From positions 372,001 to 436,000 of the forward strand of contig JALHQT010000001.1 of NCBI GenBank assembly GCA_022841825.1: DNA of 64,000 nt, given 5' to 3'. Both the position numbers and the translations under genes were made by a program. Within the stretch, counting starts at the first letter, position 1. Each line of letters opens with the position of its first letter. Positions 51,279 through 63,662 of the stretch are shown in pieces. The notes under the pieces are model-generated. The model did no database searches and had not been told where the DNA came from. It saw only the letters and a program-made list of their open reading frames with translations. Source of the stretch: Anaerolineae bacterium. GTDB taxonomy: Bacteria > Chloroflexota > Anaerolineae > Aggregatilineales > Phototrophicaceae.

Positions 51279-52136
51279 TCAGGCGAGAAGCTCAGGGAAC
51301 TGCTCTGGGTTGTCTGCAATTCGGACGCCTGCGGCGCGCAGTGCGTCGATCTTTTCTTCTGCGGTGCCTTCGCCACCCTCGACGATTGCCCCGGCGTGAC
51401 CCATGCGTGTCCCTTGCGGGGCGGTGCGCCCTGCGATAAAGGCTGCAACCGGTTTTGTCATGTTTGCTTTGATGAATTCGGCGGCGTCAATTTCTGCACG
51501 TCCACCGATTTCGCCCATCAGACAGACTTTTTCGGTTTGTGGATCTTCCTCGAACATTTGCAGCACGTCGATGAAGTTGGTTCCGATGACGGGGTCGCCA
51601 CCGATTCCGACGCAGGTACTTTGCCCAAGCCCACTCTGTGTCAGCGCGTAAACGACCTCGTAGGTGAGCGTTCCGCTCTTGCTGACGACGCCGATGCTGC
51701 CGGGCTTGGCGATATAGCCAGGCATGATACCGATTTTTGCCTGTCCAGGGGTGAGCAAGCCAGGGCAGTTCGGTCCAATGAGCCGGATGTTGCCGTCGCG
51801 CAGGTAGTCATAAACGCGCATCATATCGCTGACCGCGACGCCTTCAGTAATGCAGACGACTAGCTTGATGCCTGCGTCAACGGCTTCGAACATGGCGTCG
51901 GGCGCGTACGGTGCCGCGACGTAGATGATGCTGGCATCCGCACCGGTGGCTTCGACAGCGGATTTTACCGTATCGAACACCGGGACACCGTGTACCCACT
52001 CGCCGCCTTTACCCGGGGTAACACCGCCGACGACCTGTGTCCCATATTCGATCATCTTCTGCGTATGAAAGCTGCCTTCGCGCCCTGTGATGCCCTGGAC
52101 AATCAGCTTCGTGTTCTTATCGGCGAGGATCGCCAT
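51279..52136 (-). CDS. sucD: Succinate-CoA ligase, alpha subunit
   Basis: TCA-cycle enzyme subunit of 285 residues that carries the phosphohistidine. The signs are [16 protein letters not shown] (CoA-binding), [34 protein letters not shown] and the active-site region [20 protein letters not shown] with the catalytic His. It follows sucC by 2 nt. The complex makes GTP or ATP from succinyl-CoA. Confidence 0.97.
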
Positions 52137-52138
52137 GA

Positions 52139-53296
52139 TTAGAGTTCTCCTTTGGCAGCCTGAACCGCGAGCTGGGCGGCTTGTGTTAAGGTGCTGGCGT
52201 AGCGAACGTTGGGCAGATTTGCTGCTTCGATTATCCTGCGACCCTCCTCGGCGTTTGTCCCGTTCAAGCGGACAATCAATGGGACGTTGGTCGGTACTTC
52301 GCCCAATGCCTGGAGGATACCACGCGCCACTTCGTCACCCCGTGTGATGCCGCCGAAGATGTTGAAGAGGACGGATTTGACTTGTGGGTCGTTGAGGATA
52401 ATGCGCAGCGCCATCGCCACTTTGTCCGCCTGGGCACCGCCACCAATGTCGAGGAAATTGGCGGGACCGTAGCCTTCGCCGCCGTACAGCTTGGTCATGT
52501 CCATCGTCGTCATCGCCAGCCCAGCTCCATTGACCATACAGCCGATGTTGCCGTCGAGTTTGACATAACTTAAGCCTGCATCTCTGGCATGGATGACTTC
52601 AGGGGGATCATCGGACACATCTCGCTGCGCTTCGAGTGCCTGCTGGCGGAACAGCGCGTTATCGTCAATGATCATTTTGCCGTCGAGCGCGAGCAGTTCA
52701 TTCGCATCGGTCACGACCAGCGGATTAATCTCTGCCAGCACTGCGTCAGAACCCACGAAACTTGCGTACAGATTCATCGCTATCTTGGCGAAGGCGCGCC
52801 AATGCTCGCGGGAGAGTCCCATCGCAGCAGCGACATTGCGCGCCTGGTATTCACGAAGACCGAGGAATGGATCGATGTGCTGTTTGATGATCGCGGTCGG
52901 ATTGTCCCTGGCAACGATCTCGATCTCGACGCCACCCTCAGCAGATGCCATCAGCAGAGGTTTTCCGGCAGCGCGATCATTGGTGACGCTCAAATAGATC
53001 TCTTTGGCGATATTGGCAGCCGGTACGACGAGTACTTTGTGGACAATGTGCCCTTTGATTGACATGCCCAGGATCGCGCTGGCTTTTTCCCTCGCTTCTT
53101 CAGGTGTCTGCGCTAACTTGATGCCACCTGCTTTGCCACGCCCACCGACCAGCACCTGCGCCTTGACGACGACCGGAACAGCCATTTCGCGTGCGATGTT
53201 GTAGGCGGCTTCTGCGGTATTGGCGACTCTGCCGGTTTGCACCGGGACGCCATATTTGGCGAACTGTTCCTTCGCCTGATATTCGTGCAAATTCAC
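52139..53296 (-). CDS. sucC: Succinate-CoA ligase, beta subunit
   Basis: ATP-grasp subunit of succinyl-CoA synthetase, 385 residues. It starts (GTG at 53296, GAGG about 7 nt upstream) as [18 protein letters not shown], the family opening; an ATG-like frame from 53341 adds 15 spurious residues. It shows [55 protein letters not shown] and [16 protein letters not shown]. Nucleotide specificity is not assigned. It forms an operon with sucD. Confidence 0.96.
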
Positions 53297-53439
53297 GTAT
53301 CTGCCTCGCTTCCGTTGGGTAATGCCACACGAATATAGCAAGTATACCCCTCTGCACGGCTGAAAGCAGAAGCAGGATCATTTAGAACTTGGTGAGGCGG
53401 GCTTTACGAGGCGTACCGTGGGCGCGAAGAAGGGGGCAA

Positions 53440-53478
53440 GGCGAGCACTGTGCTTGCAGCCTGGGCTGCGTGCTCACC
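53440..53478. repeat. Branched hairpin in the sucC upstream region
   Basis: GGCGAGCAC (53440-53448) pairs with GTGCTCACC (53470-53478) with one mismatch, and GCAGC-CTGG-GCTGC (53456-53469) is nested within it. It lies between the DUF503 gene and sucC, both leftward, with no T-run. It may be a leader or partial terminator. The remainder of 53297-53507 shows no gene. Confidence 0.45.
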
Positions 53479-53507
53479 ATTCCGCAGGTGTGCGGGTCGT
53501 CAACCGC

Positions 53508-53798
53508 TCATAAGATCTCGATTTGCTGGTCGCTGATCTCACCGTCGTTCCAGTTCTGCTCTATCCAATTGATGATGTTATTGACCATGCTGTTGGCATG
53601 TGAAGCCGAGTTGCTGACGGTTGCAAATGCGACGACCGCGATTTCCAGCTCATCCTGATCGGCGATTTCGGCGACTGCAAGATTGTATTCGGCACGCATT
53701 TTGGTGAAAAGCGACTTCAAGATACTGCGTTTGAGTTTGATGGAATCGACGCCGCCGAGGTCGAGCGTCAGTGTGCATAGCCCAACGTTGACTTTCAT
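53508..53798 (-). CDS. DUF503 (YlxP-like) protein
   Basis: A 96-residue protein of the DUF503 family, often found beside translation or ribosome-assembly genes. It opens with MKVNVGLCTLTLDLGGVDSIKLKRSI and continues with KMRAEYNLAVAEIADQDELEIAVVAFATVSNSASHAN, matching the family from start to end. The start at 53798 is chosen for this reason; a frame to 53987 reads through unrelated sequence. The function is not established. Confidence 0.88.
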   Translation of the reverse strand: MKVNVGLCTLTLDLGGVDSIKLKRSILKSLFTKMRAEYNLAVAEIADQDELEIAVVAFATVSNSASHANSMVNNIINWIEQNWNDGEISDQQIEIL

Positions 53799-53915
53799 GA
53801 TGATAATTCTGTGGTGCCCTACGCCATGTCTCAAGGGGAAACGCGAGCAAGATCGTCTAGGATTAGGATACCTGAAGCAATCCACTTTTACTACTACTAG
53901 GAAAGCGTGAGGAAC

Positions 53916-54284
53916 ATGGCACGGGTTCTTTGCATTGAGGACGAAACCGAGATGTCCCAGCTCATGGAGATGATATTGAGCCGTCACGGGTATGAGGTGG
54001 ATCTCGCAGCTACAGGGCGAGACGGGTTGTCAATGATTGAACGCCGTCGCCCGAACATTGTCCTGCTCGACCTGATGATGCCCGACATGGATGGATGGCA
54101 GGTTTACAACCAGCTCAAGGCGAATCCTGACACGTCATCTATCCCTGTCATCATCGTGACCGCGCGCGCGCAAGCTACTGAAAAGACGATTGCGATGAAG
54201 GTGGCGCAGGTCGATGACTATATCGTCAAGCCATTTAATCCAACGCAACTGGTTGAAACAGTTGCCGAAATTCTTGCACGATAA
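53916..54284 (+). CDS. CheY-like response regulator, single receiver domain
   Basis: A 122-residue receiver domain without output domain. Motifs: VLCIEDETEM (acidic pair), IVLLDLMMPDMDGWQ (phospho-acceptor Asp), VIIVTARAQ (Thr switch) and YIVKPFNP (Lys). ATG 53916 gives the family opening MARVLCIEDE; a GTG at 53907 is also possible. No kinase is adjacent; the orphan kinase at 28487 is one candidate partner, by inference only. Confidence 0.93.
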   Translation: MARVLCIEDETEMSQLMEMILSRHGYEVDLAATGRDGLSMIERRRPNIVLLDLMMPDMDGWQVYNQLKANPDTSSIPVIIVTARAQATEKTIAMKVAQVDDYIVKPFNPTQLVETVAEILAR

Positions 54285-54430
54285 CCGACAGCATTCGAGC
54301 GCAGCAGGGGAGCCGGGTTTGCCCCCGAATACGCGAACCGGAATACTTCGGTTGCCATGTAATTGAACGAATTTGTGTTATAGTTCCGATAGGTTTACCC
54401 AGTCATGGCTTAATCAATCGGAGTCTGTTT

Positions 54431-55999
54431 ATGCGCAAACGACTTTTCCTCGCAACACTCTTGATTGTGGCTCTTTTTGTGATTGCGGTGCCCGCCGCGT
54501 TTGGGCAGAGCAATCTGCTTGTGAATCCCGGATTTGAGCCACCATTCACCGCAGTCGGTGGTAACCAGCTTGTCCAGGTTGCTGAGGGCTGGACACCCTG
54601 GAACGTGGCACAAGCTGCGGGCGACTCCTCGTCACAGAATGTGCAGCCGGAATACCTCCCCGCTTCCAATACCAGTGACAGCCTTGGTATCCCGCGCATC
54701 CAGGCTGGTTCTGACGCACAACAGTTTTCATCCTTCTTCGCAACATTCACGGGCGGCGTGTTCCAGCGCGTGTCCGGGCTGCCAAGCGGAACGGATGTCA
54801 CATTCCGCGTTTCCGCGTATGTGTGGTCATCGGCATTTGATGACCCAGATCTTAGCGATGATGACGGCGGTGTCCTCGTCCAGGTCGGTATTGATCCGAC
54901 GGGTGGCGAGGATGGTGAAAGTTCGAGCATTATTTGGTCACCTGCGGTACAGCAGTATGATGCTTTTGTCGAACACTCGGTGACCACGCGGACGACAGGC
55001 GCAAGTGCCAGCGTTTGGATCCGTGCTATCGTCAGCTTCCCAACCAAGAATAATGTCGTCTACGTGGACGAAGCCTCGCTGCAGGTCGCAGGCGGAACGG
55101 CACCGACGGCAACTCCTGTTGCGCCAACCGCGACCCCTGTTGCAGCGACCGCGACACCCGTACCGCCCACTGCGACACCGGTTGCGCCGACCGCGACTAC
55201 AGCCGCAGGCGTTTCTACCAATACTCCAGCGCCCGCGACATCCACGTCTACGACCACCGCACCGACGGCAACGCCTGTGCCGCCGACAGCCACACCTGTG
55301 CCGCCGACGGCGACCACCGTGCCGCCGACCAATACGCCAATTCCGGCGACCAATACACCGCCACCCATTTCGTCCGATTTTCCAGGACGGATCATTCATA
55401 CTGTACGCCCAGGCGACACCGTGTCGCGCCTTGCGACATTGTATGGCAGTACAACCCAGGCGATCATTTCGGCAAATGGACTTGACGAACAGGCGTTGAT
55501 CTTCGTTGGGCAGGGGCTGGTGATTCCTGTTCGGTTGTCGGCACCTGCTACGGCGACCCCGACTGCTACGCCGCAGGTCATCGTCGTAACTGCAACGCCC
55601 GTTGTCCCCGCACCGACCGCAACCCCACAACCTGCACCCGGTGGGACGACCGTCTATGTGGTTCAACCCGGAGACACTCTGCGCCGCATCGCGCTGCGCT
55701 TTAACACGACAGTCTCAGCTCTGGCGCAGTTGAACGGTATCACCAACGTGAACTACATCCAGGTTGGGCAGCGCCTGACGGTGCCCGGTTCGGCACCCGC
55801 GCCAACGCCCGTACCGCCGACGTCGGCACCCGGACCCACCGCGACCCCAGCACAAGCCCGGACGTATCGCGTCCAACCCGGCGATACGCTTTATCGGATC
55901 GCGCTGCGTTTTGGCGTGTCGATGCGTGGGCTGCAACAGGCGAATGGCATCACCGATCCGAACCGCATTTTCTGGGGACAGGTGTTGACAATTCCATAG
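54431..55999 (+). CDS. Secreted protein with three LysM domains and Thr/Pro linker
   Basis: A 522-residue exported protein. The signal peptide (about 1-27, FVIAVPAAFGQ) is followed by a carbohydrate-binding-like beta domain (about 30-215, NLLVNPGFEPPF, SGLPSGTDVTFRVSAYVW), a long TATPVPPTATP-type linker (about 217-315) and three LysM modules (about 320-365, 400-445 and 478-522) that open IIHTVRPGDTVSRLA, VYVVQPGDTLRRIA and RTYRVQPGDTLYRIA. LysM modules bind glycan of peptidoglycan or chitin. It is the first gene of an envelope cluster and probably has its own promoter near 54379. Confidence 0.87.
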   Translation: MRKRLFLATLLIVALFVIAVPAAFGQSNLLVNPGFEPPFTAVGGNQLVQVAEGWTPWNVAQAAGDSSSQNVQPEYLPASNTSDSLGIPRIQAGSDAQQFSSFFATFTGGVFQRVSGLPSGTDVTFRVSAYVWSSAFDDPDLSDDDGGVLVQVGIDPTGGEDGESSSIIWSPAVQQYDAFVEHSVTTRTTGASASVWIRAIVSFPTKNNVVYVDEASLQVAGGTAPTATPVAPTATPVAATATPVPPTATPVAPTATTAAGVSTNTPAPATSTSTTTAPTATPVPPTATPVPPTATTVPPTNTPIPATNTPPPISSDFPGRIIHTVRPGDTVSRLATLYGSTTQAIISANGLDEQALIFVGQGLVIPVRLSAPATATPTATPQVIVVTATPVVPAPTATPQPAPGGTTVYVVQPGDTLRRIALRFNTTVSALAQLNGITNVNYIQVGQRLTVPGSAPAPTPVPPTSAPGPTATPAQARTYRVQPGDTLYRIALRFGVSMRGLQQANGITDPNRIFWGQVLTIP

Positions 56000-56030
56000 C
56001 CTTGACCTGCGTCGACATATGGTAGGGTAG

Positions 56031-56058
56031 CAAGGGGCGCGAATGCTCGCGTCCCTTG
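56031..56058 (+). terminator. Strong hairpin after the LysM gene
   Basis: CAAGGGGCGCGA (56031-56042) and TCGCGTCCCTTG (56047-56058) pair over 12 bp with one G-U and a 4-nt loop. No T-run follows, so it may act as a stabiliser or partial terminator. Confidence 0.5.
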
Positions 56059-56091
56059 TGCATCCTTGATGTGGATTAAAGGTTGGGATCA

Positions 56092-56472
56092 ATGGCGTCG
56101 TGGCGTATTCTGCAAAATGACAGTACTCAGCAGATTATCCTGAAGCGAGTTCAATTGTGTGAGAGTTTCTGGTGTCATTTTCGCGGATTGATGCTGATCA
56201 AACACTTGCCTGCGGACAATGGGTTGTTGTTTGTGACCGGGCGCGAGAGTAAGGCACAAACGACCATACACATGTTCTTCATGCGCTTTCCCATAGGCGT
56301 GGTCTGGCTCGACAGCGAGCGGCGGGTGGTGGATGCCCAGCTTGCAAAGCCCTGGCGTCCTGCTTACGCTCCCTGCGCTCCTGCGCAGTACTTTCTTGAA
56401 GCCAATGTCAGCATCCTCGACCGTGTAAAGGTGGGCGATGTCCTCCGCTTTGATGAGCCTTCTAACCCGTAA
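56092..56472 (+). CDS. DUF192 family protein
   Basis: A 126-residue protein with the DUF192 core: FRGLMLIKHLPADNGLLFV, TIHMFFMRFPIGVVWLD, and the C-terminal ANVSILDRVKVGDVLRF. Many members are exported, but no signal peptide is visible here. The function is unknown. The start at 56092 (MASWRILQND) is the likely one. The next gene starts within its last 35 bases, which suggests coupling. Confidence 0.9.
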   Translation: MASWRILQNDSTQQIILKRVQLCESFWCHFRGLMLIKHLPADNGLLFVTGRESKAQTTIHMFFMRFPIGVVWLDSERRVVDAQLAKPWRPAYAPCAPAQYFLEANVSILDRVKVGDVLRFDEPSNP

Positions 56473-57745
56473 ATCGGCGCGTACGCTTTGGTGGCGTGTG
56501 GTTCCAGCAGTGCTTGTGTGGTTTGTCCTGGCAGCATCACTCGCTGCGCAGGACAATCCGCCTGGTGTTGGCATTCATGTTGTCCAGCGCGGTGAAAACC
56601 TCTACCGAATTGCGCAGTCCTACGGGGTGCCGCTCGATACTCTTGTGCAGATGAACGGAATGGCTGACCCTGGTAGGCTTCAGGTCGGCGACCGCTTGCT
56701 GGTGCCTCTCGCAGTGGCAGGCGGGGAACCACAAATTTCCGCGCCTGTGATCGCCCTGAGTGATGAGGTGTACCATGTTGTGCTGCCCGGCGAGACGCTC
56801 TTTCGTATTGCGACTCAGTACGGTGCGAGCCTGAATGCGGTGGTCGAAGCCAACGCCATTACTGACTCCAGCCTGATTTACCCCGGACAGACGCTTCTCA
56901 TTCCGGGAGTGCAGCCGCCTCAGCTTTCGGGAGATTTGCCGCCGATTGTCAGCGACATCAGCATCCAGCCGCAGGTCTTTGTCACAGGGCGCACTGGGAT
57001 GATCAGGCTTGTTACGTCAGCACCTGCCGCCGTGAGCGGTTCGTTTCTGGGGAGGTCGCTTCGTGTTGCGTCCGATCCAACAGGGCTGATCCACTCGCTG
57101 ATCTTTGGATTGCCAATGGACAGCGCCGCTGGGATCTCTCCTGTGACATTGTCTGTTGCCGACAGTGCGGGAGGGACATTCACGGTGAGTGCGGATGTTC
57201 AGGTTGTGGCGAACCAGTTTGCGACCGAATCCCTGACAATTCCGGATGATCGCCTGGTGTTGCTCGGCACAGAGGTCGATGCTGCAGAAGGTGAGACGAT
57301 ACGTGCGGCGATGAGTGGCTACACTAACGATCGGTTGTTTAATGGATTGATGGGGCTGCCCGCAGCGGCAGCCGTGACGTCGCCTTTTGGCTCGACTCGT
57401 TCCTACAACGGAGGTGTTCTGCAACGCCTGCATCTCGGCACTGACTTCGCTGGCGCGCCAGGGTCAGCTATCTTTGCCCCGGCAGATGGGATTGTGGTGT
57501 TTTCGGGTGCCCTGGATGTACGTGGTCTGGCAACAATAATCGATCATGGTTGGGGTGTCTACACAGGTTATTGGCATCAGACGGAAACCTACGTGGTTCC
57601 CAGCGATCGAGTCGTTGCAGGTCAAGTGATCGGCACGATTGGAATGAGCGGGCGGGCAACGGGACCTCATCTGCATTGGGAAATGTGGGTGAATGGTGTT
57701 CCGGTTGACGCGATGCAGTGGGTTCAACAGTCGTTTTCGCCATGA
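56438..57745 (+). CDS. LysM and M23 peptidase protein
   Basis: A 435-residue exported cell-wall protein. A signal/anchor segment (about 18-37, VVPAVLVWFVLAASLAAQ) is followed by two LysM modules (about 46-92 and 110-155: IHVVQRGENLYRIAQSYGV and YHVVLPGETLFRIATQYGA), an unassigned beta-rich domain (about 165-305) and an M23 peptidase domain at about 310-435 with HLGTDFAG (His, Asp) and GPHLHWEMW (His). It probably binds and cuts peptidoglycan. It overlaps DUF192 by 35 nt and the GH31-like gene by 4 nt. Confidence 0.9.
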   Translation: MSSALMSLLTRKSARTLWWRVVPAVLVWFVLAASLAAQDNPPGVGIHVVQRGENLYRIAQSYGVPLDTLVQMNGMADPGRLQVGDRLLVPLAVAGGEPQISAPVIALSDEVYHVVLPGETLFRIATQYGASLNAVVEANAITDSSLIYPGQTLLIPGVQPPQLSGDLPPIVSDISIQPQVFVTGRTGMIRLVTSAPAAVSGSFLGRSLRVASDPTGLIHSLIFGLPMDSAAGISPVTLSVADSAGGTFTVSADVQVVANQFATESLTIPDDRLVLLGTEVDAAEGETIRAAMSGYTNDRLFNGLMGLPAAAAVTSPFGSTRSYNGGVLQRLHLGTDFAGAPGSAIFAPADGIVVFSGALDVRGLATIIDHGWGVYTGYWHQTETYVVPSDRVVAGQVIGTIGMSGRATGPHLHWEMWVNGVPVDAMQWVQQSFSP

Positions 57746-60249
57746 TCAGTCGACTCTTTCGACGCGGGCTATCCCCTGGGCGTACGGAACCCCCCGCGCC
57801 ACCGTCGCCCATTGTGCGCTATCGGAAGCGGGCGCGCTACGGTATTTTGTCACTTACGCCAGAAGAGGTCAGCACGCTTGCTGCCGAGGAGAAGGCTCAC
57901 CGCCCGGCAGGTCGGGCGGCGCTGATCTCGCAGACAGGCACTGCGAGCGGGAACATCAAGCGCATAGCCCCTACGGAGCGAGGCGCTGAAATCCTCGGCG
58001 ATGCAGGGAGAACCCGACTCGAATGGATCGCGGCAGACTGCCTTCGCATCTCGCGTTCAAGTGGCGATGCATTCGTGGTATCCGAGGCGACTGACGCACC
58101 GAGCGCACCCCTGAGCCTGGAATGGGCGGATGAGGCGGATGTTTTTCGGATGTCATCGGGGTCTGCTTCGTGCATGATCAGCAAACGCGATGGCTCTGTT
58201 TCGATGCGCCTCGGCGACGGTCCAATCGCGTACCAGGAAATACTCCCCCCGCACATGACTCCCGATGGGCGGATGCAGCATGCTGTTGCGCTGCCGCCTG
58301 GCGTGATGTGCAGCGGCTTTGGCGCTCATGTCAACCCGATCAACGTGCGCGGTATGCAACTTGATGTTTATTCGAGTGCGAGGAATGGATTCATTGCTCC
58401 CGTACCGTTCATGTTGCTGACAGCTCCCGACTTCAGTTGCGGCGTATTCTGGCGCACTTCAGCACCACTATCTGTGGATGCTGGCAGAAGACGTGACGGC
58501 GAGTTGACCGTCACGCTGGATGAGGAACAACTCGATTACACGATCATGGTGAGTTCGTCGCCGGTGGGCGTACTCGCGCGCTTCTCCTCCTTGCTGCCCT
58601 CGCTGGCGCTGCCCCCGTTATGGGCGTTGGGTCTTCATGTTGGGGGCGATGCATTTGATAGCGCGCATCACGTCAATCTCCTGATGCGTGAGCTGCGCGA
58701 TCGTGGGCTGCCGGTCGCCGCGCTCCAGTTAGGTGGCATGGCGATGGATGATGGTCGCCCGCTGACTCTCAACGCGGAAAGATTCCTAGACCTTTCCGAG
58801 ATGGTGGACAATCTGCACCAGGTTGGCATCCAGGTCATTCTCGAAGTTCATCCCGCAATTCGAGTGGATGAGACCTATCCCTTGTATGCGAGCGGCACGA
58901 GCCGAAGTGTCTTCGCTGCCTATGCCGATGGCACATCTGTTCGCGCTGCTGCTGCGATGGGGATCAGCGTCTTTCCGGACTTTATGCGAGAGGAGGTGCG
59001 CACCTGGTGGGCAGAGCAGATGCGCCCGCTCGTGCGCTCCGGCATCGATGGTATCGGTGTCTACTCCGCTGGTCCCGATGTTATTCGTGAGGGGGAATTC
59101 GATGACCTGCCGGAAGGGACACAACACCAGCTTAACGGCGCAGCCATCGCACATTCGTCCGTGCGGTCACGCTACAGTGGTCAGATGTCCAGCGCATGTT
59201 GTGCTGCCCTGGAGAAAGATCGGAGTGCGCTGCGCTCGTTCGTGCGTCAGGCGAGTGGTGGGACAGAGATTTCGCAGTATGGTGCCCTTTCGGTCGAGAC
59301 CGCGGGCGACTGGGATGGCTTGAAGGCAGCAGTGCGGGGCGTTCTGAATGCAGGCGTGAGTGGCATACACCTCGCGGGCTTGGAGATTGACGTGCGTGAT
59401 GGCGAGATGATGGTTCGCGCAATGCAGGCGGGAGCCTTGATGCCCAGTCTTCTCATGACGATGAGTCGAACTGCTGACGTGTCTCCCTGGCGTTTTGACG
59501 AGGAGATTGATCAGGCAATTCGCGAAACGCTGACTCTGCGCACGCGCCTGCTTTCATACCTCTATACGTGTGTTGCGTTGGCACGCGAGTATGGCGCTCC
59601 CATTATTCGTCCGCTTTGGATGTTTGACCCTGCCAATGCATCGCGCTACGACTCTGACGATGCGTTTATGATTGGTGACCATGTTTTGGCGGCACCCGTT
59701 CTTAGCGAAGGCACAAGGGCACGCTCGCTGTACCTCCCGCACGGCTTGTGGTACAACTATTGGACGAACGAGCCACTCGATGGTGGCACAGTTCATCAGC
59801 TTCAAGCACCGCTGAATCGGCTGCCGCTGCTGGTGAGGGCTGGTGCTGTGCTGCGTATTTCGCCGGACATGGATGAGGCAGGCGGAAGACTGCGCGTATA
59901 CGCGGGCAGCAGCGACTCGACATCTTATGATGATGCTGGAGAGGGATACTCGTATCTGCATGGGGATTACCGTTGGGTGTACCATACCTGCCGATGGGAA
60001 ACGAACCGGAATTTCGTAGTCACTCGTCGCCGTACCGGTGGGTTTTTTCCATCGGATAAGCGTCTGCGCATCGAGGTGGTCGGGTTGGGTGAGACCCCTG
60101 ATGAGGTACGCCTGGATCGCTACGGTGCCCCGCTCTGGTACTTCGATCAGGGTGTCCTGGAAGTTGTCGCCGACGACGAGGTCGCCCGTGTGGAAGCCTG
60201 GTTAGCGGGCAGCCCGACATCACCGACCCGCAAAAGACGGGCGCTATAG
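57742..60249 (+). CDS. GH31-like protein with altered active site
   Basis: An 835-residue protein of the glycoside hydrolase 31 fold, which usually cleaves alpha-glucosides, xylosides or galactosides. The scaffold is clear: PPLWALGLHVGG, REEVRTWWAEQMRPLVRSGIDG, VLNAGVSGIHLAGLEID, RTRLLSYLYTCVALAREYG, PIIRPLW and VLAAPVL. However, the segment that should read FWxDMNEP after SGIDG is IGVYSAGP: Tyr441 lies where the nucleophile Asp is expected. The early IWLDIDYM region is LGGMAMDD. The general acid candidate Asp523 (TAGDWDGL) is kept. ATG 57742 overlaps the LysM-M23 stop. It is probably a non-hydrolytic relative or a binding protein. Confidence 0.83.
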   Translation: MISRLFRRGLSPGRTEPPAPPSPIVRYRKRARYGILSLTPEEVSTLAAEEKAHRPAGRAALISQTGTASGNIKRIAPTERGAEILGDAGRTRLEWIAADCLRISRSSGDAFVVSEATDAPSAPLSLEWADEADVFRMSSGSASCMISKRDGSVSMRLGDGPIAYQEILPPHMTPDGRMQHAVALPPGVMCSGFGAHVNPINVRGMQLDVYSSARNGFIAPVPFMLLTAPDFSCGVFWRTSAPLSVDAGRRRDGELTVTLDEEQLDYTIMVSSSPVGVLARFSSLLPSLALPPLWALGLHVGGDAFDSAHHVNLLMRELRDRGLPVAALQLGGMAMDDGRPLTLNAERFLDLSEMVDNLHQVGIQVILEVHPAIRVDETYPLYASGTSRSVFAAYADGTSVRAAAAMGISVFPDFMREEVRTWWAEQMRPLVRSGIDGIGVYSAGPDVIREGEFDDLPEGTQHQLNGAAIAHSSVRSRYSGQMSSACCAALEKDRSALRSFVRQASGGTEISQYGALSVETAGDWDGLKAAVRGVLNAGVSGIHLAGLEIDVRDGEMMVRAMQAGALMPSLLMTMSRTADVSPWRFDEEIDQAIRETLTLRTRLLSYLYTCVALAREYGAPIIRPLWMFDPANASRYDSDDAFMIGDHVLAAPVLSEGTRARSLYLPHGLWYNYWTNEPLDGGTVHQLQAPLNRLPLLVRAGAVLRISPDMDEAGGRLRVYAGSSDSTSYDDAGEGYSYLHGDYRWVYHTCRWETNRNFVVTRRRTGGFFPSDKRLRIEVVGLGETPDEVRLDRYGAPLWYFDQGVLEVVADDEVARVEAWLAGSPTSPTRKRRAL

Positions 60250-60407: not shown

Positions 60408-61631
60408 ATGTATATCGAGGCGAACAGCACGAATGTGCCCGATGCGCGGGGTTACTTTGGTGATTTTGGCGGGCGATTCGTGCCGGAAACGCTGATGCCC
60501 GCGCTGGACGAACTGACGACCGCGTACTATGAAGCGTTAGCCGATAGCGAATTTCAGGCGCGTCTGGCGAACATCCAGAGGACGTACACCGGTCGCCCGA
60601 CGCCCTTGACTTACGCGGCACGCCTGAGCGAACAGCTAGGCGGTGCGCGTATCTACCTCAAGCGCGAAGACCTGGCACACACCGGCGCGCACAAAATCAA
60701 CAACGCTCTGGGGCAGGCGCTCCTTGCGCAGCGGATGGGCAAGAAGCGCGTGGTGGCGGAGACGGGCGCGGGGCAGCATGGCGTCGCCAGCGCAACGGCG
60801 TCGGCACTGCTGGGGTTGGAATGCCATGTGTACATGGGTAGCGTGGATATTGCACGTCAGCGTCCGAATGTCTTTCGGATGAAACTGCTCGGCGCGAATG
60901 TCATCCCGGTGGAGAGCGGAAGCAAGACGCTCAAGGATGCCATCAACGAGGCGATCCGCGACTGGGTGACCAACGTCGAGACGACCTTTTACTCGCTGGG
61001 TTCGGCGCTGGGTCCCCATCCATATCCCATGATGGTGCGCGACTTTCAGAGCGTGATCGGAATTGAAGCGCGCGGGCAAATCCTGGAGCAGGCGGGGCAG
61101 CTCCCCGATGTGTGCATCGCCTGCGTCGGCGGCGGTAGCAACGCGATTGGGTTGTTTCATGCCTTTCGTCAGGATGAGGCAGTCGATCTTGTCGGCGTGG
61201 AAGCAGGCGGGCATGGCGTCGCAAGCGGCGAGCACGCCGCTCGTTTCGCCGATCCGGACATCGGTCGTCTGGGGGTGCTGCATGGGACAAAGTCGTTCGT
61301 GATGCAGGACTCAGACGGGCAGATCGTGAATACGCACAGCATTTCGGCGGGGCTGGATTACCCATCCGTCGGACCTGAACATGCCTTCCTGCGCCAAAGC
61401 GAGCGCGCATACTACACCTACGCGACGGACGACGAGGCATTGGATGCCTTGCAGACGCTCAGTAAGCTGGAAGGGATCATTCCCGCGCTCGAAAGCGCGC
61501 ACGCTGTCGCCGAAGCGATCAAGCGCGCGCCGACTATGCCGAAGGATGCGGTCATGCTGGTGAATTTGTCCGGACGCGGCGACAAAGACCTCGATACGGT
61601 CATCTCGGCACTGGCGGGGCGAGAAGGATGA
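60408..61631 (+). CDS. trpB: Tryptophan synthase, beta subunit
   Basis: PLP enzyme subunit, 407 residues, that joins indole and serine to form tryptophan. It shows [21 protein letters not shown], the PLP lysine in [12 protein letters not shown] (Lys96), [30 protein letters not shown] and the C-terminal [11 protein letters not shown]. The start at 60408 is preferred because GAGG lies 8 nt upstream and the length fits; a frame from 60321 adds an unlikely leader. First gene of a compact group that ends with trpA and aroH; the upstream 158 bp show no T-box or trp leader peptide. Confidence 0.97.
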
Positions 61632-62092
61632 GAGAGGGTTTTCAGCTTACCGAACGGAATCGCGCGGTGGTAGGCATGATTCTTTACACCGACGATGGGC
61701 GAGTACTCTTGCAGCAGCGCGATGATAAGCCGGAGATTCCATATCCAGGGTTCTGGACGTTGTTTGGCGGGGCAGTCGAAGCGGGCGAAACACCCGACGA
61801 GGCAGTGCACCGCGAACTGATGGAGGAGCTTAGTATTTCACTGCCGATGGCGTTTTGGCACGACTATGTGTGCCCGGTGCGCAGCAAACCTGGCGGCGTC
61901 ACGACGCGCAACTTTGTATACACGGCACGGTTGGTGCAGCCTGTCGAGTCTCTGACCCTGTACGAGGGGCAGGCGATGCGGCTTTTCTCGCCTTCAGAAG
62001 CGATGCGGCTTGAACTGGCGTATGCGCAGAGCGGGGTGCTGCGTGGGTGGTTTGATGTCGGCATCAATGGCGGCGGGTGCGGCACCGTATGA
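61628..62092 (+). CDS. NUDIX hydrolase
   Basis: A 154-residue pyrophosphohydrolase of the NUDIX family. The NUDIX box reads [24 protein letters not shown], i.e. G-x5-E-x7-RE-x2-EE-x-S with the last Gly replaced. Substrates could be nucleoside diphosphate derivatives, dinucleotides or sugar nucleotides; the sequence does not tell. It overlaps trpB by 4 nt (ATGA) and the following gene by 4 nt, so it is translated with the tryptophan genes, though no known step needs it. Confidence 0.9.
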
Positions 62093-62853
62093 GCATCGCG
62101 CTTGCATCGACCTGGCAGCCGCGGGGAGAGCTTGCCCGCTTGCAGCGTTATCGCGCCCGACTGATGGAGATCTTCGAGAGTCTGACCATCGTGATGCCGC
62201 CATCGGCGGGGGATATCCTTGTGGCGACACTCGGCAGCATGTCAGGTGTACATCCTTTCGTCGCGCATGACTGGACCCGCGGGCGGCATATCGCGCTGGA
62301 ACGTGCGCTTGGGCACTCAGCCTCGCACATCCTCTACTGTGACCTCGACCGCCTGATCCGCTGGGTGGAACTCTATCCTGACGAGTTAACCATGACGACG
62401 CGGCGCGCGCAGTCGGGCGACTGCCTGGTCGTGGGGCGTACGTCGTATGCGTGGGAGACGCACCCGCGCTCGCTGCGGCACACCGAGAAGATCATAAATG
62501 ATGTCTTCGCGCACATGATGGGTTGTGAGATGGATATCTGCGTGGCGACACGCGGCTTTAGTCGTGCCGCTGCCGAGCGCGTACTTCGGGAGAGCAAGGC
62601 GGAGTCGTCGCTTGGCGTGGATGGCGAATGGCTGTACATCGTGCGTCGTGCGGGGATGGCGTTGGACTACGTTCAAGTCGATGGAATGGACTTTGAGACG
62701 GCAGACCAGGGATTGGACGCGGCGGCAGACGGCGAACGTCAGCGAACATATGGCGAGGCGTATGATGCCGAGGCGTCCAGTTGGGCGCAGCGCGTCTTTG
62801 TGGCAAATCAAATCATCGGCGCGCTTTTGAGTATTGCGAGGGACCAAAACTGA
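62089..62853 (+). CDS. Glycosyltransferase-like protein
   Basis: A 254-residue protein. Its N-terminal region ([20 protein letters not shown]) and the HILYCDLDRLIRWVE segment with a DxD-like Asp85/Asp87 resemble GT-A-type glycosyltransferases; the later part has GRTSYAWETHPRSLRHTEKI and VDGEWLYIVRRAG. The assignment is tentative, because no donor-binding motif beyond DxD is clear. It overlaps the NUDIX stop by 4 nt; the trpA ATG overlaps its own stop (TGATG). Functionally unrelated to tryptophan synthesis as far as known. Confidence 0.6.
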   Translation: MSIALASTWQPRGELARLQRYRARLMEIFESLTIVMPPSAGDILVATLGSMSGVHPFVAHDWTRGRHIALERALGHSASHILYCDLDRLIRWVELYPDELTMTTRRAQSGDCLVVGRTSYAWETHPRSLRHTEKIINDVFAHMMGCEMDICVATRGFSRAAAERVLRESKAESSLGVDGEWLYIVRRAGMALDYVQVDGMDFETADQGLDAAADGERQRTYGEAYDAEASSWAQRVFVANQIIGALLSIARDQN

Positions 62854-63662
62854 TGAGTGATGCACGGACGCAGGGCGTGACCGCGCTTGAAACCATGTTT
62901 GCAGCGGCGAAGGCAGAAGGGCGGTCGGCATTCCTGCCCTATTTCCCCATCGGGTATCCGAATTACGAGGAATCGCTGGCGGTGATTGAGGCCCTGGCGA
63001 AGACGGGTGTCGATGGGTTTGAGATCGGCATTCCGTTCAGCGATCCGCTGGCGGATGGCACGGTCATTCAGGCGGCGACCCAGAAGGCGCTCGAAAACGG
63101 CACCACTCTTAGAGCATGCCTGGCGGCAGTCCGTGAGCTGCGCGTGCGCGGTGTCGAGCAGCCGATGATGCTGATGGGGTATATGAACCCTTTTATGCGT
63201 TATGGGTTAGAGCGCTTCACCCGTGACGCGAAAGCGGCAGGCGCGGATGGGTTGATCATCCCAGATTTGCCGCCAGAGGAAGGCGCTGTTTTCGCGGAGC
63301 TGTGTCGCAAAGAGGGCTTGGCGCTGGCATTCTTCCTGGCACCGACCAGCAGCAGCGAACGCATTGCTCTGGTGGCACAGCAGGCAAGCGGGTTCATCTA
63401 TGTTGTTGCATTGACGGGGGTTACAGGCGCACGCACTGAGCTACCAGCGGATCTGACGAACTTTATCCAGCGCGTCCGCCAGCAAAGCGGCGATGTGCCG
63501 CTTGTCCTTGGATTTGGCATCAGCCAGCCAGAGCATGTGCAGGCAGTCCAGAAGCTGGTGGATGGGTATATCGTTGGCAGCGCCTTGGTGCGGGCGGGTG
63601 AGCATGGTGCCGAGGCGACACGCGCGCTTGCCGAACGCCTTATGCCGCGCGGCGCGCTATAA
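62853..63662 (+). CDS. trpA: Tryptophan synthase, alpha subunit
   Basis: Alpha/beta barrel subunit, 269 residues, that cleaves indole-3-glycerol phosphate to indole for TrpB. It shows FLPYFPIGYPN, the catalytic acids in GFEIGIPFSDPLADG, MLMGYMNPFMRYG, GLIIPDLPPEEG, FLAPTSSSERI and GFGISQPEHV. The ATG overlaps the preceding stop by one base, a sign of coupled translation. trpB comes first here and trpA is separated from it by two genes, whereas trpBA is usually adjacent. Confidence 0.97.
   Translation: MSDARTQGVTALETMFAAAKAEGRSAFLPYFPIGYPNYEESLAVIEALAKTGVDGFEIGIPFSDPLADGTVIQAATQKALENGTTLRACLAAVRELRVRGVEQPMMLMGYMNPFMRYGLERFTRDAKAAGADGLIIPDLPPEEGAVFAELCRKEGLALAFFLAPTSSSERIALVAQQASGFIYVVALTGVTGARTELPADLTNFIQRVRQQSGDVPLVLGFGISQPEHVQAVQKLVDGYIVGSALVRAGEHGAEATRALAERLMPRGAL

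Follow-up and report, generated by a model that had tools for sequence, protein, structure and literature searches.

Can a glycoside hydrolase that has lost its catalytic nucleophile still be an enzyme, and if not, what keeps its gene in place? This question is raised by a 64,000-nucleotide stretch of an Anaerolineae bacterium (contig JALHQT010000001.1, positions 372,001 to 436,000; hereafter the window), in which a gene for an 835-residue GH31-like protein overlaps an upstream LysM-M23 endopeptidase gene. A preliminary description had proposed that Tyr441 replaces the nucleophile and that the product is a glycan-binding or scaffold protein of the cell envelope rather than a glucosidase. From sequence comparisons and models we conclude that the protein is probably a cytosolic GH31-derived pseudoenzyme, selected mainly for non-catalytic C-terminal domains and co-produced with the M23 enzyme, both its inactivity and its binding role being inferred. 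Feature coordinates are collected in Table 1.

The GH31 scaffold is complete, in line with the preliminary description. PF13802, PF01055, PF21365 and PF17137 all scored over their Pfam cut-offs, and the best solved-structure matches by sequence were two-domain maltase-glucoamylase and the archaeal α-glucosidase MalA. The agreement of Pfam and relatives ruled out a wrong reading frame for 57742-60249. An AlphaFold model built with nine sequences had a mean predicted local distance difference test score (pLDDT) of 76 and a predicted template modelling score of 0.81. VIA-align 2 aligned 693 residues of this model with human GAA (Z 43.1, root mean square deviation 2.6), and the Z value was 43 against both GAA and glucosidase II. 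An intact relative modelled with the same nine sequences reached a pLDDT of 85 and fell below 50 solely at its two ends (1-20 and 801-811), whereas in the window protein residues 376-410 fell below 50, a part of the barrel that includes the former pocket Trp position, now Ala405. The protein thus has the same four-domain fold, over approximately residues 65-820, as the GH31 α-glucosidases MalA (2g3m), glucosidase II (5dkx) and GAA (5nn6), but unlike these it has neither the nucleophile Asp nor the acid/base Asp nor any of 15 pocket residues.

The segment G434-IDGIGVYSAGP-445 aligns without gaps, from GIDG to P, with the GIDGxWNDM(N/C)EP motif of intact relatives, and Tyr441 therefore occupies the nucleophile position, as had been proposed. 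The claim that the (W/Y)LDIxYMD region is altered also held, since the canonical −1-subsite Asp, which we take to be D327 in NtMGAM numbering, is Gly331. By contrast, Asp523, previously regarded as the retained acid, lost that status, the acid/base column being occupied by Glu519. Two relatives of the same genus, G002 and G013, show the same erosion with different residues: the nucleophile column holds Tyr, Gln and Glu in the window species, G002 and G013, respectively, and the acid/base column Glu, Val and Thr. The Tyr is thus not conserved among homologues, and Tyr441 was discarded as a nucleophile. In the next relative, G014, the nucleophile is retained, the acid/base position is Ala and 7 of the 15 pocket positions are kept; an acid/base Ala mutant served as the inactive form according to PMC9061262.

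The loss is concentrated in the pocket. The reference set consisted of 51 relatives of the same order with both catalytic Asp residues, in which 97 columns were near-invariant (≥95%), 15 of them belonging to the pocket. Thirteen pocket positions follow NtMGAM numbering. Two more were taken from glucosidase II, for which PMC4742823 gives Asp443, Asp482, Trp517, Asp556, Arg617, Trp630, Asp633, Asp662, His691 and Asp303 as catalytic or ligand-binding, a list that includes counterparts of many of the thirteen as well; these were assigned to columns of the window protein by motif rather than by structural alignment. Several of these residues also occur in a bacterial GH31 according to PMC9061262. 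The window protein retains 0 of the 15 pocket positions (the letters aligned to F575 and H600 vary between alignments, with the canonical residue in neither) compared with 53 of the 82 other near-invariant positions (Fisher p 1.5e-6). G002 keeps 1 of 15 and 63 of 82, G013 1 of 15 and 64 of 82. The window protein is very probably a dead GH31, as judged from its residues, and the earlier suggestion that it is not a glucosidase is supported.

Loss of catalytic residues has occurred repeatedly in the order. A search of 154 genomes gave matches in 62, each with a single match at E 1e-110, so that no close second copy was seen. The window's own genome holds three more GH31 genes (L001, L002 and L003), all of them distant paralogues that pass the Pfam threshold and in which, as judged by eye, both catalytic motifs have their Asp. 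Both catalytic columns were covered in 60 of the 62 rows; 51 had both Asp residues and nine did not, namely the window protein, G002, G013, G014, G069 (nucleophile Ser), G148 (acid/base Ser), G048, G143 and G144. Partial rows (G006, G018, G034 and G065) were dropped from the 64-row census; the uncounted G065 has Gly at the acid/base column. A quick tree calculated without 13 pocket columns required 4 changes in catalytic state. The family tree of three neighbour proteins required 3, with reduced forms counted and absent ones omitted; only 15 of its 29 inner branches have good support, and G014, represented by 20% of the columns, is placed apart from the dead genomes with which it shares a genus. 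Together this gives at least four losses, in the window's genus, in a subclade of genus g13, in G018 and at least once in family f7, where loss is the natural reading of counts that themselves carry no direction. A class-wide profile search of 396 sampled genomes found relatives in 17 (E 1e-150), and the three genomes outside the order were all intact. No relative was confirmed in the viral_contigs scan. In family f7, L154, L155 and L025 make up another clade of dead GH31 proteins of full length, and no M23 gene was found near the GH31 copy of L025 (L070). The very divergent L158 (G123) keeps both catalytic Asp residues, but four of its other pocket positions carry Ser, Ser, Ala and Asn.

The place of the gene behind M23 is occupied by forms at several degrees of reduction. 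M23 was present in 87 of 98 family genomes and in all 63 of the cleaner ones (E 1e-60). Of the 17 other GH31-bearing family genomes that were read first, 16 have it directly upstream of GH31 (the exception is G020), whereas the three loci read outside the family (G048, G051 and G042) lack it there. The gene overlap stated in the preliminary description is real: an ATGA overlap occurs in the three pocket-erased species, and most others have a gap of 8-16 bases. Where the slot was read it held 12 intact GH31 proteins, 5 dead full-length proteins, 2 with a large barrel deletion and 4 consisting of C-terminal domains, the shorter frames being located with residues 597-835 as query. In G071 and G066 parts of the N-domain survive together with the C-terminal domains, but roughly half (G071) and two thirds (G066) of the barrel are missing. 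G063 (343 residues), G061 (342), G070 (329) and G018 (356) encode solely the barrel end and the C-terminal β-sandwich domains; the distances from the M23 stop to their starts are 10, 10, 13 and 34 bases. PF21365 scored over its cut-off in all four of these C-only proteins and DUF5110 in three (G070 reached 20.9 against 27). The neighbour-protein tree unites G069, G071, G066, G070, G063 and G061 in one clade (100/99), so that point loss, barrel deletion and C-only forms coexist in a single lineage. Internal TGA recoding was considered for G039 and G046 and rejected; these codons are found at the C-terminal end and resemble normal stops that were read through.

Evolutionary rates indicate constraint of a changed kind. 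Among 13 genomes other than the pocket-erased ones (a group that includes G069, which lost its nucleophile) the median difference between GH31 and M23 identity was 0 (78 pairs). Between the three pocket-erased species and these 13 the GH31 identity was a median of 14 points under that of M23 (39 pairs), and among the three it was 20 points under (3 pairs), which shows that constraint has been relaxed. It has not disappeared. The codon models were simple, and because the window protein's own branch and most pairs are synonymously saturated the values of ω, the nonsynonymous to synonymous rate ratio, are unreliable and rejections of ω = 1 alone were used. By twice the log-likelihood difference, ω = 1 was rejected on the own branch (77), in three C-only pairs (170, 166 and 143) and in the N, barrel and C segments of G002-G013 (119, 144 and 109). 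The own-branch ω of 0.013, at a branch length of 24.5 (the upper bound), is no usable estimate, and a stem ω of 7.4 for the C segment, at the upper bound on a short branch, was set aside as noise. The 835 codons contain no stop, against about 39-50 expected on a neutral half path by a rough count. The motif is absent while the fold is kept, and selection appears to maintain the gene, subject to the synonymous saturation.

The distribution of this constraint over the protein has shifted. Identity of the window protein to G002 is 25% in the N-domain, 39% in the barrel and 50% in the C region. In intact pairs the barrel and C-region identities were 86/80, 79/75, 81/67, 90/90 and, for the closest pair, 97/100%, compared with 62/75% for G002-G013 and 67/77% for G048-G144. 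The barrel is therefore at least as conserved as the C region in four of the five intact pairs and less conserved in both dead pairs, a pattern suggesting a shift of constraint. This conservation, the codon models and the relatives that keep the C-terminal domains alone point to protection of those domains above all.

Other explanations were weighed against these results. The protein might still be an enzyme with a changed reaction, supported either by Tyr441 with Glu519 or by a carboxylate that has moved, for instance Glu/Asp368 next to His370. Sialidases use Tyr nucleophiles, Glu519 stands at the acid/base column, and position 368 is Glu, Asp and Asp in the window species, G002 and G013 and mostly Ile in intact relatives. 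The carboxylate and the His are common to the three; they are located where a predicted barrel strand (364-369) ends, at and near a former pocket position. We nevertheless consider this highly improbable, given the scatter of residues at both catalytic columns in three close relatives and the low-confidence segment 376-410, which the intact relative does not have. A search for an alternative nucleophile found no position within four residues of the nucleophile column that is Asp or Glu in all three; the nearest is Asp436, the GIDG Asp, present also in 26 of the 51 intact relatives. The envelope role is improbable as well. The adjacency to LysM-M23 with its ATGA overlap speaks for it, and β-sandwich domains could in principle bind glycans, but the sugar-binding residues are gone, which leaves glycan binding through the old pocket unsupported. 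Moreover, a hydropathy scan of the first 60 residues of the window protein and 16 syntenic relatives found no hydrophobic stretch that could be a signal peptide or membrane anchor in any of them; the highest 19-residue hydropathy was 0.82, and 0.22 in the window protein. A cytosolic location is inferred from this result. LysM-M23 starts with a signal-like stretch, as seen by eye; the two proteins may or may not act together, since M23 would be secreted and the GH31-like protein would not. A scaffold-like, non-catalytic role as first suggested stays the best guess, with the amendment that the C-terminal domains are its main seat and the cytosol its location, as far as the evidence indicates.

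More serious, though still unlikely, is that the gene is decaying: once the activity had become useless, constraint would have been relaxed, and the dead, trimmed and C-only proteins would be intermediates of gene loss that have acquired no new function. The identity deficits relative to M23 fit such a course, as does the very long own branch (1.63 changes per site). On the other hand, frames stay intact over long divergence, ω = 1 is rejected in dead and C-only forms, and the C-only architecture is common to three related genomes with 54-68% C-region identity. Several observations weigh against the view that the protein is kept for its C-terminal domains, the long branch and the saturated codon models among them. 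In 15 of 18 further M23 loci nothing matched the C-terminal domain profile (best E 0.47), so the gene is dispensable, which suits decay; of the others, G079 has a GH31-like frame that begins where its contig ends, and the contigs of G006 and G073 run out at M23 or shortly behind it. Draft assemblies make up many of the genomes, and G061 and G063 carry 7 and 10% contamination, although SucCD, LysM, DUF192 and M23 lie on the same contigs as their C-only genes. The dead N-domain and barrel of G002-G013 are also under constraint, which means that more than the C-terminal domains is kept. Finally, 41 positions, including Gly331 and His370, are common to the three pocket-erased species and occur in at most 10% of the 31 relatives used; some are located in the old pocket or close to it, and these could reflect a new pocket function.

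With a pseudoenzyme kept for its C-terminal domains as the preferred reading, the history may be pictured as follows. The ancestor would have been a cytosolic GH31 α-glucosidase encoded behind LysM-M23 in this Anaerolineae family, its glucosidase activity being the half that this two-part protein could do without. Erasure of the sugar pocket, with the fold kept, has taken place in the window's lineage, and selection still protects the protein and above all its C-terminal β-sandwich pair. These domains would have a non-catalytic job, most likely the cytosolic binding of a protein or other ligand, and the tight placement behind M23 would serve co-production with the wall enzyme. Tentatively, and with rather less assurance, PF21365, DUF5110 and the following tail of GH31 enzymes might be a functional unit of their own, one that in Anaerolineae serves the LysM-M23 operon and that lineages have repeatedly kept while discarding the glucosidase; the discarding could, equally tentatively, have proceeded through the catalytic residues or through barrel deletion.

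The order SucD-SucC, response regulator, LysM, DUF192 and LysM-M23 (window 51279-57745) recurs, whole or in part, in the family genomes read, including those without GH31 (gene names are provisional, some of them assigned by eye). The DUF192-type label is a presumed one. Downstream, at 60408-63662, a NUDIX-like gene and a gene for an unassigned 258-residue protein sit between trpB and trpA (names by eye from translations).

Table 1. Features of the GH31-like gene and its surroundings (window positions)
Feature	Position	Strand	Basis or remark
GH31-like protein P0001, probable pseudoenzyme, 835 residues	57742..60249	+	ATG at 57742, stop ends at 60249; translation, Pfam, AlphaFold, VIA-align
N-terminal β-sandwich domain, residues 68-288	57943..58605	+	least conserved part; 22-25% identity to G013/G002 over residues 60-288
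(β/α)8 barrel, residues 289-609	58606..59568	+	pocket erased
C-terminal β-sandwich domains, residues 600-823	59539..60210	+	best conserved part; retained alone in four relatives
Gly331 at canonical −1-subsite Asp	58732..58734	+	Gly in all three pocket-erased species
Glu368-Val-His370	58843..58851	+	carboxylate and His common to three pocket-erased species, rare or absent in intact relatives
Tyr441 (codon TAC) at nucleophile Asp position	59062..59064	+	alignment to intact relatives
Glu519 (codon GAG) at acid/base Asp position	59296..59298	+	alignment
Asp523	59308..59310	+	four residues past acid/base column; column variable among intact relatives
ATGA overlap of GH31-like start and LysM-M23 stop	57742..57745	+	same overlap in G002 and G013; possible translational coupling
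LysM-M23 endopeptidase, upstream	56438..57745	+	zinc motifs HxG(T/A)D and HLH in 20 of 20 genomes aligned
DUF192-type gene (presumed), conserved neighbour	56083..56472	+	synteny
LysM protein, conserved neighbour	54431..55999	+	synteny

Klotho and the SLC3A heavy chains are non-catalytic relatives of glycoside hydrolases in which the enzyme fold was kept and catalysis lost while the gene was maintained. A search of open-licence literature for GH31 or bacterial glycosidase pseudoenzymes gave no GH31 pseudoenzyme among the matches listed. Nor are we aware of a report in which the C-terminal domains of GH31 are retained on their own, from literature searches that were not aimed at these domains by name. 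The beetle GH28 pseudoenzymes, as described in PMC6549527, likewise kept fold and gene without catalysis. Unlike all three, the window protein is a bacterial GH31 with no close intact copy in its genome, and its relatives delete part or nearly all of the barrel and keep the C-terminal domains. PMC6549527 describes pseudoenzyme evolution as driven by gene duplication; here, in contrast, a gene that has no close duplicate lost its catalytic function where it stands, in four or more lineages, and a single operon slot holds a range from point loss to a free-standing remnant. Such dead genes would be annotated as α-glucosidases, which is a warning for the reading of related genomes. The finding also points to a possible seat of a second function in GH31 proteins, namely domains that include DUF5110, a domain of unknown function.

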